A stretch of 55,790 nt of DNA from an uncultured Succiniclasticum sp. (lineage in GTDB: Bacteria > Bacillota > Negativicutes > Acidaminococcales > Acidaminococcaceae), in NCBI GenBank assembly GCA_905233365.1, contig CAJODT010000001.1, positions 29,427-85,216 on the forward strand, written 5' to 3'. Below are positions 17,970 to 23,113 of the stretch, in pieces (the first letter of the stretch is position 1; the number at the start of each line of letters is the position of its first letter). Both the position numbers and the translations under genes were made by a program. The notes under the pieces are model-generated. The model was not told the DNA's origin and did no database searches. It saw only the letters and a list, made by a program, of their open reading frames with translations.

Positions 17970-18010
17970 AAATTTCGCCCTCCTTATTTAATGAAATCAC
18001 GATTTATGAA

Positions 18011-18041
18011 AACCCTGATGTGCGTTGAGCGCATCAGGGTT
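18011..18041 (-). terminator. Terminator after the RiPP precursor
   Basis: A 10-bp stem AACCCTGATG/CATCAGGGTT, extended inside by a GCG helix, followed by TTTTC on the minus strand. It ends the unit that contains the precursor gene. Confidence 0.7.
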
Positions 18042-18082
18042 TATAAACTACTCTGTTTTCGCCGTATCGTTCAACCGATAAA

Positions 18083-18328
18083 TCAATAAACGCAGTCGGC
18101 CATCGTGTGTTTGGGGCAATCCTCCATATAGCACAGGCCGCCCGCCGTCTTTTTCAAGGTATCTTCGTCCAGCTCCACATCGGACAGCTCCACCATATAC
18201 GCTTCGGCTTCGTCTTTGGTAATAGCAAGGTCCTCGGCTTTTGCCAACGCCATCAGCTCGTCGGCTGTCTTGCACTGCATGGCTTTCAAAATCTGTTCTT
18301 TTGTGAGTTCGTTTCTGTTGATTGGCAT
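18083..18328 (-). CDS. Nif11-type RiPP precursor peptide with three-cysteine core
   Basis: An 81-residue peptide. Residues 1-62 look like a Nif11-class leader: a helix with ILKAMQCKTADELMALAKAE, then acidic VELSDVELDEDTLKK, ending in AGG (62-64). The double glycine is the usual cleavage site for a C39-type peptidase. The predicted core is LCYMEDCPKHTMADCVY (65-81) with Cys66, Cys71 and Cys79. An AAAGGA site precedes the ATG. It lies 97 bases after the 124-aa maturase-like gene in the same direction. Assignment rests on the leader pattern; no transporter or peptidase is adjacent. Confidence 0.75.
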   Translation of the reverse strand: MPINRNELTKEQILKAMQCKTADELMALAKAEDLAITKDEAEAYMVELSDVELDEDTLKKTAGGLCYMEDCPKHTMADCVY

Positions 18329-18425: not shown

Positions 18426-18800
18426 TTAGTTGCCTTTTCCCGCTTTCTCGGGTTCCGGGAAAAAAGCGTTCGCCTTTACAATGTCAAACATTTCCTTCTG
18501 GCTTATTGTTTCCATAATCGTCTCACGTTCCGCTTCCGTGAACCGGGAGACAGACCCGGCCAGGGACAGCGTCAGTTCTCCCGCTTCGTCTTTGCAGGTG
18601 ATGTGCCCGCGCAGCAGTAGCCTTTCCCGCAATGCAGCGGACAATCCGGCAAAATTTCCTGCCTGCAGCTTATCCGCATCTTCCTTCGGCACTACGTCCA
18701 CGGCCCCGTACAGACCGTTCACCAGCAGCGCGTAGCCTTCGATCTGTTTTTCATCCGTAGCGACCAGCGGCAGGATGATTTCATAGGTGCTTAGTCTCAT
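18426..18800 (-). CDS. Maturase-like N-terminal fragment or RRE-like accessory protein
   Basis: A 124-residue protein with no named family. MRLSTYEIILPL followed by LLVNGLYGAVDVV and then LLLRGHITCKDEAGEL resembles the N-terminal (leader-recognising) part of radical-SAM peptide maturases, from memory of such proteins. It ends in a lysine/proline tail and has no CxxxCxxC cluster motif, so it cannot be a radical-SAM enzyme itself. Its ATG overlaps the stop of the c-di-GMP gene as ATGA. It could be a stand-alone leader-binding protein or a truncated maturase. Confidence 0.6.
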   Translation of the reverse strand: MRLSTYEIILPLVATDEKQIEGYALLVNGLYGAVDVVPKEDADKLQAGNFAGLSAALRERLLLRGHITCKDEAGELTLSLAGSVSRFTEAERETIMETISQKEMFDIVKANAFFPEPEKAGKGN

Positions 18801-21800
18801 GATGCATACCCCTCGTTATTCTTTTTCAGTTTGCTCTTATTCTCATACATATTCTGGTCTGCACGTACAAAAACCGCAGCTACACAATCGTCATTATCGA
18901 ATTTCGACATGCCGCAGGCAAGGATGATTCCACCGGTACGGGACGCCTCTTCATTGTGTTCCTTCACATTTTTAAGCAATTCTTCAATACATGCGTAATC
19001 GTTGCTCTGTGAAATTACCGCGAACTCGTCGCCGCCGAGGCGGAAGACAGGACTGTGCTTAAAGATTTCGCAGATAATTTTGCAGGCTTCGCGGATACGC
19101 CGGTCTCCTTCCTGGTGGCCGTAAAGATCGTTGACCTTTTTCAAATCGTTCATGTCCAGGATTGTGATGGAGAATGGCGGCTGGCGATGCTCCCTGATCT
19201 GGCGGTTCATACGTTCTTCCACCTCGGAATAGGCATACCTGTTTTTAATGCCTGTCAGGGCATCGATACTGGCCTCGGTATGTGCCTTCGCAATACGCCT
19301 TCCGAACTCTTTCTCCTGCCGTACCTGTGCGTCAATATCATTGAGGCCGACAACCAGACGGGCGCCTTCCTTTTCTTCCACCATGGCGGCCTTCAATTGG
19401 ACATAACGGGATTTATCTTCTATCATAACCCGGTAACCCAGGGTAAAGATACCGTTGCGTTTAATCTCTGCCATTACGTTTTCTTTGGTGAAGGCCGAGA
19501 GGAAATGTTTCTGATCCTCCGGATGGTTAAAGATATCGCCGGCTTCCCTCACCGTTCTAAAGAAGTCCGTACCCTCCTTCGCCTGGGCAAAGTCCGCCTT
19601 ATAAACGGCAGTCGAGCTGAATTCGTGGTAGCGGCCGGTCTCCGGTTCTACCACGTACACGCAGAGGAAGTTGCCTGTAAGGGCATGGAGCCGGGCGTAA
19701 ATAATACGCTCCTCCTCCCTTCTTGCCTCCGCGCGGCGCTGCCTCATCAGCTCGTCGATATCCTTCACGGCAAGAACGATGAAGCGCTTATCGTCTTCCA
19801 TGCGTGTGACCCTCATCAGCACATAGAACGGTTCTCCCCCTTTAATCCGGCGGTAGGTCAGTTCAAATACCTTGTTCCCGTCCAGCGCCTCCTCTAAAAA
19901 CTGACGGTTCATGGCCTTTACAAAAGCTGACTGATCCTCCTGATGCACGTACAGTTTTGCGTCACGCTCGCAGCCTTCAAAGAAATCCGATCCCCGCCTT
20001 GCTTCGTTGAGTACGCCGCGCTCGTCGTCAGTGTGGAATTCGATAAATTCATCGGTGTCCATATTGACGTAGAATAAATCCGTGTAGCCCCGGGCCAGCG
20101 CATGGGCGACGTGGTTATAAATGGTAGCGTTGCTGTGCGCTTTTTTGTAAGCGGCTTCCAGTTTGCGCCTGTATTCTTCCTCGTCATTGGTTACGCCAAG
20201 AATGATTTTTTCTCCATCGCTCTCCTGGATCAGCGTGGCTTTCAGGCTTGTCGGTACTTTCTTTCCGACCATCATCATCCGATAATGATGGATAAATAAA
20301 CCGTTTTCCTTTAACCCACGCAGCACATTTTCCTTCGTGAAAACGCGCAAATGTCTCTCCATATCTTCCGGCGCAATGGCTTTGGGAGCATCCGTTACAA
20401 CATCGGCGAAGAAATCGTCGCCCTGCTTTGCCAGGCCGAAACTCGCAAATTCATTCGATGGGTTGTACTGGGTATAATGACCGGTCACAGGGTCAATCGT
20501 ATAAAGGACGATATAGTCCGGAGACAGTGCGGCAATTCGTCCTAACGATACGGTTTCCTGTTGCAGCTTTTTATCTTTTTCCTGCTGCTTCATCTGGGCA
20601 TCAATGATGCTTATACCCAGGATGATACGGTTGCAGCTCATTCTGGTTATCTTCATATTAACATACATCGGCGTCCCTGTATCGATCAGCCGGTATGTAG
20701 TTGTGAAAACACCTTGCTTGTCCAGTTCCCGGAGAACATTTTCCCGGGTAAAACATTTCAGGAACGGTTCCCTGTCCTCTTCATATATACGGGTCATGGT
20801 ATCGCGTCTTGCGGATGCAAAGAAATCCTTGCCATGCCGTTCTACCGACAGTTCTTCAACACCGATCTGAGAAGAGTATTCAATAAAATCGTTAGTATCC
20901 AGATCAATCACAAAAAGATTATAATAGTCTGCCGCAAGAGCTCTCGCAATCTCAGCAAAGGTTGTGCTTTCATCCGGTTCCTTAATGGAGAGCACGGCAA
21001 TCGCAACCGCAACGCTGCCCGTGACAGTATTAGCATGGATGCGCCGGGCAAAGGCATGGACAACCGAACCGTCAGGCATCTTTTCATCAAAGAACGCACG
21101 ATTTTCGTTATTGCAACACTGTTTAATGACGGATACAAAGGTTGATCCGTACCCGATTGACGAATCGCCGAAGCCACTCCGACCCTGAAAAATGTCTTTA
21201 TCAAAAAAACGCTTGATAAAATCCTGGTAGGAACGGTTGCTTCGGATGTATCTGGCTTTACCGTCCTTAACTTCAAGAATAGCAATCGGGATCGTGTTGA
21301 AGGAATGCTGAAAGACATTTGCATCTTCACTGGCAATCACGCCCAGATCGAAGAGGTTTACCCGGCCTATGCTTTTGTAGTAATCGGATTCCTCCGGATT
21401 TTCAGCTTTAATCAGCGACCCGCTTATGTGTTTTTCTATAATCGTTTCAAAGGATATCGGTTTGCTGTAATAATACCCCTGGAGTTTAGAACACCCAATT
21501 TCCTGCAGGAACCGGACCTGCGACGATGTTTCCACCCCTTCACAGACGGTGTCTACCCCCAAAGATGTCGCCATCCTCATCAGCTCGGTCAGGATAATCC
21601 TTCCGCCTTCTCCCTCATCCAATTTGCGCATGAAACTCATATCAAACTTGATCAGGTCGAACTGGATGCTTTGTAAAACATCCAGGGAAGAATATCCGCT
21701 GCCAAAGTCATCCATCCACACCGGAAAACCGAGCTCCCGGAACCTCTCTATCTGTCCCTTCATGAACGTAAAATCATTGCCGATGACGCTCTCGGTTATT

Positions 21801-23113
21801 TCAATCGTAATTCTGTCCCGTTTTACTCCTGCCGCATCCACCCTCTTCCGGATTTCCTCCACCATGTCACAGGCGTCGAAATCAGAGCGCGAGAGGTTGA
21901 CAGAATGAGGGACAGCTAAAAAGCCTTCTTTGATTTGTGTTTTGATAATTTCCAAAACCTGGTCAACCATGTACAAATCCAGCTTGTACATCAGTCCCGC
22001 GTCTTCCAATACCGGGATAAAGCTAAGCGGAGATAAAAGGCCTTTCACCGGGTCAGCCCACCTTGCCAGCGCTTCCACGTCGCAGACTTTTTCATTCACA
22101 GCCCGGATGATCGGCTGTAGATAGACCTGAATCCATTTTTCCTGAATAGCCCTGTCCAGGTTATCCAAAATATACTGCCGGTTTGCTTCCTTTTTCAGCA
22201 GTTCTTCAGTGAAATACTCATATACCGATACATAACTGTTACGGTGTACGTTGCAGGCCATCTTGGCCCGGTCGCAGGCGCCGCTGATCTCCAGCCCGGT
22301 ATTGTCATCCACGTAAATCCCGACCCGCACCGGCAGGTTTTTCCCACCGTTCAGGCCAAGGCATTCCTCAAACATCTTCTCCAGTTTTGTTTCCAGGCCG
22401 TGCGCGTTTGTATAGCCTACAAAATTATCCTGGGCGATGCGACAACAATTATCTCTTCCGAAATACTTTGCAAGGAGTTCTGCAAAAGCCTGGATCAGCT
22501 TATCGCCTTCTGCGAACCCGTTCTTACGGTTAAAACCGGACAGGCCGCAGAAGTCGCAATAAACCACTGCCTTCGTCTGACTCCGGGCAGCGTCTGCCAG
22601 TTTAAAAAAATACGCCATGGTGGGAAGGCCCGTAAGAGCATCATAGGATGCCTTACGTATCATGGTCTCTTCACGCAGCATCGCATTAAACGAACGGGTC
22701 AGCGCATTCTTTTCTTTATCGTCTGCGGAATAAAAGCCCTCACTTGTGTACCAGACAATGGTAAGACGGCTCCCGTCTTCGGCAGTAATCCGTTCTCCCT
22801 GGGCATGTACAACCATGTTGTCTTTCCGCTTCGCTGTTTGAACCCGGAAAACTATATTTAAATGAGTGCCTTCCGTAATAAAACTGTTGACCTCGGCAAG
22901 GATCCTGTCCCTGTCATCCGGGTGTATATTAATATACATATTGTGGCTCATCAGCTCCAGGGCTTCTTCTTTCCCAAGGGCAAACAAGTTACAAAAGCCC
23001 GCAGAAACAACAAGGGGCACAACCTTGTTGTCTGTATTCTGAAAAACGACAAACGGAATAACGGATCGTTCCAGAACTTGCAGAGCACCTTTATTGTACT
23101 GATATTGAGTCAT
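18797..23113 (-). CDS. Giant PAS / GGDEF / EAL cyclic-di-GMP protein with four sensor repeats
   Basis: A 1438-residue cytoplasmic protein with no membrane segment. Order: PAS-like (1-125); degenerate GGDEF (about 155-300; the motif reads AQDNF at 227-231); EAL phosphodiesterase (about 310-560) with EAL at 347-349, VNLSR, EITES, DDFGSGYS, LIKFD and CEGVET; a PAS-like region (595-715); four related sensor repeats (about 715-840, 855-975, 1000-1125, 1135-1265), three with FTxENV and all with a YR strand; and an intact GGDEF (1360-1364). It should both make and break c-di-GMP. GAGGA precedes the ATG. It is coupled to the 124-aa gene. Confidence 0.92.
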   Translation of the reverse strand: MTQYQYNKGALQVLERSVIPFVVFQNTDNKVVPLVVSAGFCNLFALGKEEALELMSHNMYINIHPDDRDRILAEVNSFITEGTHLNIVFRVQTAKRKDNMVVHAQGERITAEDGSRLTIVWYTSEGFYSADDKEKNALTRSFNAMLREETMIRKASYDALTGLPTMAYFFKLADAARSQTKAVVYCDFCGLSGFNRKNGFAEGDKLIQAFAELLAKYFGRDNCCRIAQDNFVGYTNAHGLETKLEKMFEECLGLNGGKNLPVRVGIYVDDNTGLEISGACDRAKMACNVHRNSYVSVYEYFTEELLKKEANRQYILDNLDRAIQEKWIQVYLQPIIRAVNEKVCDVEALARWADPVKGLLSPLSFIPVLEDAGLMYKLDLYMVDQVLEIIKTQIKEGFLAVPHSVNLSRSDFDACDMVEEIRKRVDAAGVKRDRITIEITESVIGNDFTFMKGQIERFRELGFPVWMDDFGSGYSSLDVLQSIQFDLIKFDMSFMRKLDEGEGGRIILTELMRMATSLGVDTVCEGVETSSQVRFLQEIGCSKLQGYYYSKPISFETIIEKHISGSLIKAENPEESDYYKSIGRVNLFDLGVIASEDANVFQHSFNTIPIAILEVKDGKARYIRSNRSYQDFIKRFFDKDIFQGRSGFGDSSIGYGSTFVSVIKQCCNNENRAFFDEKMPDGSVVHAFARRIHANTVTGSVAVAIAVLSIKEPDESTTFAEIARALAADYYNLFVIDLDTNDFIEYSSQIGVEELSVERHGKDFFASARRDTMTRIYEEDREPFLKCFTRENVLRELDKQGVFTTTYRLIDTGTPMYVNMKITRMSCNRIILGISIIDAQMKQQEKDKKLQQETVSLGRIAALSPDYIVLYTIDPVTGHYTQYNPSNEFASFGLAKQGDDFFADVVTDAPKAIAPEDMERHLRVFTKENVLRGLKENGLFIHHYRMMMVGKKVPTSLKATLIQESDGEKIILGVTNDEEEYRRKLEAAYKKAHSNATIYNHVAHALARGYTDLFYVNMDTDEFIEFHTDDERGVLNEARRGSDFFEGCERDAKLYVHQEDQSAFVKAMNRQFLEEALDGNKVFELTYRRIKGGEPFYVLMRVTRMEDDKRFIVLAVKDIDELMRQRRAEARREEERIIYARLHALTGNFLCVYVVEPETGRYHEFSSTAVYKADFAQAKEGTDFFRTVREAGDIFNHPEDQKHFLSAFTKENVMAEIKRNGIFTLGYRVMIEDKSRYVQLKAAMVEEKEGARLVVGLNDIDAQVRQEKEFGRRIAKAHTEASIDALTGIKNRYAYSEVEERMNRQIREHRQPPFSITILDMNDLKKVNDLYGHQEGDRRIREACKIICEIFKHSPVFRLGGDEFAVISQSNDYACIEELLKNVKEHNEEASRTGGIILACGMSKFDNDDCVAAVFVRADQNMYENKSKLKKNNEGYAS

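Follow-up and report, generated by a model that had tools for sequence, protein, structure and literature searches.

A predicted Nif11-type RiPP precursor and the remnant of a maturase in an uncultured Succiniclasticum

The precursor gene and its upstream neighbor

The window, that is, the whole stretch of 55,790 nucleotides that was analyzed, carries on its minus strand a precursor open reading frame (ORF) of 81 codons (Table 1). A preliminary description had placed an 81-residue product at 18083-18328 without giving a strand, and the ORF was found at exactly those coordinates. The peptide elements that it had listed, Cys66, Cys71 and Cys79, an acidic stretch and an AGG, are all present in the translated product, which consists of the leader MPINRNELTKEQILKAMQCKTADELMALAKAEDLAITKDEAEAYMVELSDVELDEDTLKKTAGG and the core LCYMEDCPKHTMADCVY; the end of the leader reads ...ELDEDTLKKTAGG. 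The ATG is preceded by AAAGGA, a Shine-Dalgarno-like sequence. The stop codon is followed after 40 bp by a strong hairpin and then four U (-21.9 kcal/mol, z -5.28 in RNA folding); this hairpin was not listed by a scan for consensus terminators.

Table 1. Features of the precursor locus (positions in the window)
Feature	Position	Strand	Basis
Predicted Nif11-type RiPP precursor gene, 81 aa	18083-18328	-	ORF; own-genome paralogues; leave-one-out HMM, 108 bits
Leader, residues 1-64, AGG at its end	18137-18328	-	Alignment; per-position conservation in 169 precursors
Core LCYMEDCPKHTMADCVY and stop codon; ancestral core end probably Asp78	18083-18136	-	Codon 79 in orthologues
Stem-loop and UUUU that probably terminate the precursor transcript	18008-18043	-	Fold energy, z-score
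Putative maturase remnant, 124 aa: N-terminal RRE (ca. residues 1-76), fused in frame with C-terminal tail	18426-18800	-	tblastn, DNA junction, alignment, fold
Deletion scar GCGGGAGAACTG, one direct-repeat copy	18573-18584	-	blastn overlap of the two pieces
PAS/EAL/GGDEF c-di-GMP protein, stop overlapping the remnant start; neighbor with no shown role	18797-23113	-	ORF list, domains

The ORF located 97 bp upstream of the precursor gene was matched by tblastn to residues 1-76 and to the last ca. 50 residues of radical-SAM/SPASM maturases, with the middle missing. Alignment with 15 intact enzymes confirmed that the middle is gone and that the CX3CX2C radical-SAM motif was deleted with it. In blastn, the DNA matches of the two pieces have GCGGGAGAACTG in common, and relatives carry a near-identical 12-bp copy of this sequence at each end of a stretch of ca. 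1.25 kb. Since 12-bp direct repeats flank the missing stretch in relatives, slippage or recombination explains the in-frame deletion. In same-genus relatives that match both ends of the remnant, the matches lie within full-length frames of 526-591 aa. We conclude from these comparisons that the ORF is a putative radical-SAM/SPASM maturase shortened by an in-frame deletion of ca. 1.25 kb. The preliminary description had reported no adjacent radical-SAM enzyme, which holds for an intact enzyme but overlooks the middle-deleted one; its further statement that there is no obvious processing machinery likewise misses this remnant.

The remnant displays three strands followed by helices, as expected of a RiPP recognition element (RRE), and in a full-length relative the N-terminal RRE part was modelled at a pLDDT of about 88. 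In a structural comparison of the remnant (VIA), the top 11 matches were without exception RRE-bearing RiPP proteins, including TigE, TbiB1, CteB and SuiB; the highest Z value, a moderate 6.5, was reached with TbiB1 and with the RRE region of TigE. Foldseek alone returned no match at E <= 0.001. The retained N-terminal part of the remnant is predicted by these models to fold as an RRE.

A dispersed precursor family with variable cores

The window peptide scored below the cut-offs of both curated leader models, with 16.0 bits against 32.3 for TIGR03798 and 14.7 bits against 23.8 for PF07862. The TIGR03798 cut-off was exceeded by four of its paralogues (C127, 37.2 bits; C130, 34.4; C22, 32.8; C11, 32.5) and that of PF07862 by three (C127, 27.7 bits; C2, 26.8; C11, 25.9). 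When an HMM was built from the paralogues alone, with the window sequence left out, the window peptide reached 108 bits, while the best of 1000 composition-matched shuffles reached 8.2 bits, so that the match is far outside what chance would give. The host genome is a MAG-like draft assembly of 201 contigs (94.5% complete, 5.4% contamination), placed in the genus of Succiniclasticum ruminis. It yielded 19 matches to the window peptide (about 17 paralogues, E values down to 1e-27), 17 of them at E <= 1e-8, and a congener has up to 30 copies. The paralogues are dispersed over the genome and are 49-68% identical to the window peptide. In nearly all of them similarity breaks off at the AGG: the leader is the same and the cores differ.

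A scan of genome contigs revealed 74 precursor loci, nearly all of them in rumen Negativicutes (Succiniclasticum, Schwartzia and rumen Selenomonadaceae). The family is present in 10 of the 14 genomes of the genus, at 1 to 30 copies each, and across related rumen Negativicutes the copy number ranges from 0 to 30. No matches were found in the plasmid and phage sequences searched. Members were also seen in MAGs labelled Spirochaetia (L094, L097, L101, L102) and Lachnospiraceae (L034, L035, L089), which reflects either horizontal transfer or binning error. We conclude, from sequence comparison, that the window ORF is a predicted member of a large, dispersed Nif11-type RiPP precursor family of rumen Negativicutes. 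The earlier designation as a Nif11-like precursor is therefore upheld by way of the paralogue family, several members of which exceed the Pfam or NCBIfam cut-offs; the proposed match to a leader HMM was obtained for these paralogues and failed for the window peptide itself.

The leader/core boundary is sharply defined. Among 169 gap-free precursors, conservation amounts to 4.2-4.3 bits at A-G-G; one residue further, where the core starts, it is down to ca. 0.5 bit. Glycine occupies position -1 in 169/169 and position -2 in 167/169, and Cys66 and Cys71 are retained in every orthologue found, so the outcome that the preliminary description had named as speaking against it (a leader that no HMM recognizes, with neither the GG nor the cysteines conserved) was not observed. 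The cores are short (median 17 residues) and Cys-rich. A cysteine followed by Y or W occurs near the core start in 87 of 163 distinct cores, versus 8.4 in shuffled cores. The PapB-type ranthipeptide motif CX3D is found once in the window core (CYMED) and in 29 of the 163 cores, with no enrichment over shuffles (mean 22.8, maximum 34).

The third cysteine has a different history. The orthologues L031-L033 end in ICYMEDCPKHTMAD, the family core, which contains two cysteines. At codon 79, the four closest orthologues (L031-L034) have TGA, L035 has TAG and the window gene has TGC, which is followed by GTT TAT, former 3' bases. The tail CVY of the window peptide thus looks like the result of a lost stop codon. 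Cys79, the codon of which replaces the TGA stop of four orthologues, is not a family feature, and the core described earlier as an unusual three-cysteine one appears to be the two-cysteine family core extended through the lost stop. The possibility of selenocysteine at codon 79 was dismissed, since this codon is TAG in L035, and L031-L034 have a second stop two codons on. The core DNA of the window gene is 92% identical to that of L031-L033, versus 70-75% for the leader DNA (Fisher p = 0.01 for L031), a contrast suggestive of either an exchange of cores among leaders or strong conservation of the core.

At eight loci, a Hint (intein-like) domain is fused to a Nif11 leader with AGG and a short Cys-rich core: L020 5012-5734 (contig C107 of the same genome), L031 8848-9570, L032 5601-6293, L064 480-1331, L069 9950-10699, L094 8654-9427, L095 9141-9863 and L100 1022-1753. 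The Hint domains start with CF[TA]G[DN]SEVAVPGG, with the first Cys invariant. As an invariant Gln occupies the expected position of the block-B histidine in 8/8 of them, self-cleavage may be lost. In the literature collection searched, there was no paper on Hint-fused RiPP leaders, and none describing Nif11 precursors in Succiniclasticum.

Maturases and export genes in relatives and elsewhere in the genome

In L031-L033, a gap of 25-35 bp separates the orthologous precursor from an intact downstream maturase of the same superfamily. The cluster of S. ruminis DSM 9236 is complete, containing in a row a maturase, a precursor, a B12-radical-SAM C-methyltransferase (TIGR03975), adaptor proteins including NHLM HlyD (TIGR03794), an NHLM C39-ABC transporter and a second ABC subunit. 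The NHLM C39-ABC transporter scored 963 bits with TIGR03796 (cut-off 853) and the second ABC subunit 738 bits with TIGR03797 (cut-off 709). Precursor and NHLM export genes are thus associated in one cluster of S. ruminis; of the export genes, the genome of the window has only a fragment assembled, the C-terminus of an NHLM ABC2 exporter subunit at the end of contig C152, and it gave no match to the S. ruminis methyltransferase. An NHLM-type C39 peptidase was not found assembled in this draft of 201 contigs, whereas 9 of 10 related genomes have a C39 peptidase. A C39 match on contig C134 was rejected as the leader peptidase, since it covers profile positions 48-131 only, in 172 residues without cysteine and with no precursor beside it. 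This gene (L024 3125-3640), located beside transposase-like genes, codes for the N-terminal portion of a protein that resembles ABC transporters and the C39-like domain of which is degenerate and devoid of cysteine.

Additional maturase genes of the genome lie on C90, where the gene is complete except for a run of N (which is the interruption that had been taken for a frameshift, a reading that was rejected), and on C27 and C130, where they are cut off by contig ends. The radical-SAM gene in the vicinity of the C52 precursor is biotin-synthase-like by sequence and appears to be unrelated. It had been proposed that the peptide is matured in trans or is an orphan, and that the same leader be sought elsewhere in the genome together with maturases; the paralogues, the maturase genes on these three contigs and the exporter fragment agree with that proposal. 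Only 39 of the 198 precursors found are within 1 kb of a maturase, and the "orphan" position is therefore normal for this family.

The intact maturases, 510-576 aa long, contain radical-SAM and SPASM domains (PF04055, 83 bits; TIGR04085, 54.5 bits, cut-off 27). They share an RRE, a CX3CX2C radical-SAM core and a SPASM region with CefB (NF038107), TIGR04463, Clo7bot, PapB, CteB (5WGG), TigE (8VPO) and the nif11 radical-SAM family TIGR04064, and among solved structures, those of CteB and of sulfatase maturases come nearest to them. However, the first four of these, which are the best-scoring models, were all matched far below their curated cut-offs (131 of 600 bits for CefB), as was TIGR04064 (72 of 519 bits). 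Since every score is this low, the intact maturases are assigned to a separate, uncharacterized subfamily, one that no NCBIfam equivalog model captures at its cut-off. Their chemistry would be a crosslink involving Cys.

Several other genes recur near members of the family. An ECF sigma factor is encoded beside precursor genes in L011 (4434-4970), L017 (13370-13888), L031, L036, L039, L041 and L093, at some of these loci along with a small protein that bears a MDxLFRxxDF....LExRLW-like motif; a regulatory role in the family is possible. Also adjacent to precursor genes, in L013, L019 (838-4350), L020 (1219-4737), L033 (1973-5647) and L083, is a large autotransporter, the passenger of which weakly resembles metalloproteases. 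In two species, a 1370-aa protein that is Cas9-like by sequence and a phosphatase-like gene adjoin the C90-type maturase (L145 818-4927, L153 8873-12982).

Probable maturation of the orphaned precursor in trans

The family membership established through paralogues, the leader/core boundary, the deletion, the further maturase genes and the S. ruminis cluster of precursor, maturase and exporter, all of them read from sequence, make it probable that the window encodes an orphaned Nif11-type precursor, the local maturase of which was lost and the peptide of which is matured in trans by sister maturases. The precursor leader would be bound by the RRE at the N-terminus of a radical-SAM/SPASM maturase, and this enzyme would modify the short, Cys-rich core opening with x-C-[Y/W]. 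An NHLM exporter, made up of a C39 peptidase/ABC subunit, a second ABC subunit and an HlyD subunit, would then cut after the AGG and export the product. The local maturase lost its radical-SAM and SPASM parts by deletion between the 12-bp repeats; without these parts, the precursor could be processed only in trans, by the maturases encoded on C90, C27 and C130. Against in-trans maturation count the missing assembled NHLM-type C39 peptidase, the truncation of the C27 and C130 genes at contig ends, and the CVY tail next to a dead neighbor, which could mean that the precursor itself is decaying.

Such decay, in which the precursor died after the loss of the maturase and its peptide is no longer matured, the lost stop codon being a second sign, is an unlikely explanation. 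The maturase is gutted in frame, and the remnant carries, outside the junction, R69C and P83S at residues that are invariant among intact maturases. However, the precursor frame, the Shine-Dalgarno-like sequence, the AGG and the core CYMEDCPKHTMAD are intact, the core DNA is better conserved than that of the leader, and most precursors of the family are far from any maturase anyway.

We give little credence to the view that the remnant of 124 aa functions as an RRE in its own right and, like the discrete RRE proteins of lasso-peptide systems, passes the precursor to a maturase in trans. The RRE fold is kept, the frame is still open across the deletion, and the dN/dS of the RRE part versus intact enzymes is 0.12-0.18, not above that of intact pairs, but this ratio cannot separate the periods before and after the deletion. 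The form is also confined to one genome, with no counterpart in a same-genus relative. Equally doubtful is a misassembly that hides an intact maturase at the locus. The draft state of the assembly, its contamination and the presence of several related maturase genes would allow for one, but the shared repeat is only 12 bp, and metagenome assemblers use k-mers longer than this. Moreover, the N-terminal DNA of the remnant is only 88-91% identical to every intact copy compared, including that on C90, so the remnant is not a chimera of the compared copies. Finally, lanthipeptide-type maturation by a LanM enzyme, suggested by the prochlorosins, whose leaders are likewise of the Nif11 type and which share a single promiscuous enzyme (PMC10783134), is highly improbable, since no LanC-like domain (PF05147) was found in the 94.5%-complete assembly and radical-SAM maturases adjoin the orthologues instead.

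The closest known system is that of the N11P precursors (TIGR03798) and the NHLM exporter (Haft et al. 2010, PMC2887384). Shared with it are the long leader up to GG, the hypervariable, Cys-rich core, the many paralogues, the distance of precursors from enzymes and the export genes TIGR03794, TIGR03796 and TIGR03797. In contrast to N11P, which is mostly cyanobacterial and served by TOMM or LanM enzymes, the hosts here are rumen Negativicutes, the maturase is of the radical-SAM/SPASM type, and the window leader falls under the model cut-off. With the prochlorosins and ProcM (PMC10783134) the system shares many Nif11 precursors per one or few promiscuous enzymes, in-trans action being our inference here, but it is not a prochlorosin, as radical-SAM chemistry takes the place of LanM lanthionine formation. 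The precursor adds a new member to a known kind of peptide, and the surrounding radical-SAM system is an uncharacterized variant. A more far-reaching scenario, which we regard as speculative and improbable, is that the single in-frame deletion turned the maturase into a free-standing RRE that still serves the neighboring precursor via sister maturases in trans, within a radical-SAM counterpart of the prochlorosins where one or few promiscuous enzymes diversify dozens of dispersed Nif11 precursors and cores are exchanged between leaders.

The gutted maturase is a concrete case of how a precursor turns "orphan". Precursors far from their enzymes escape cluster-based genome mining, and in the genus as a whole and its rumen neighbors there are as many as 30 such genes per genome. 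With the complete cluster of the cultured type strain S. ruminis DSM 9236, in-trans radical-SAM maturation of varied cores would be directly testable.
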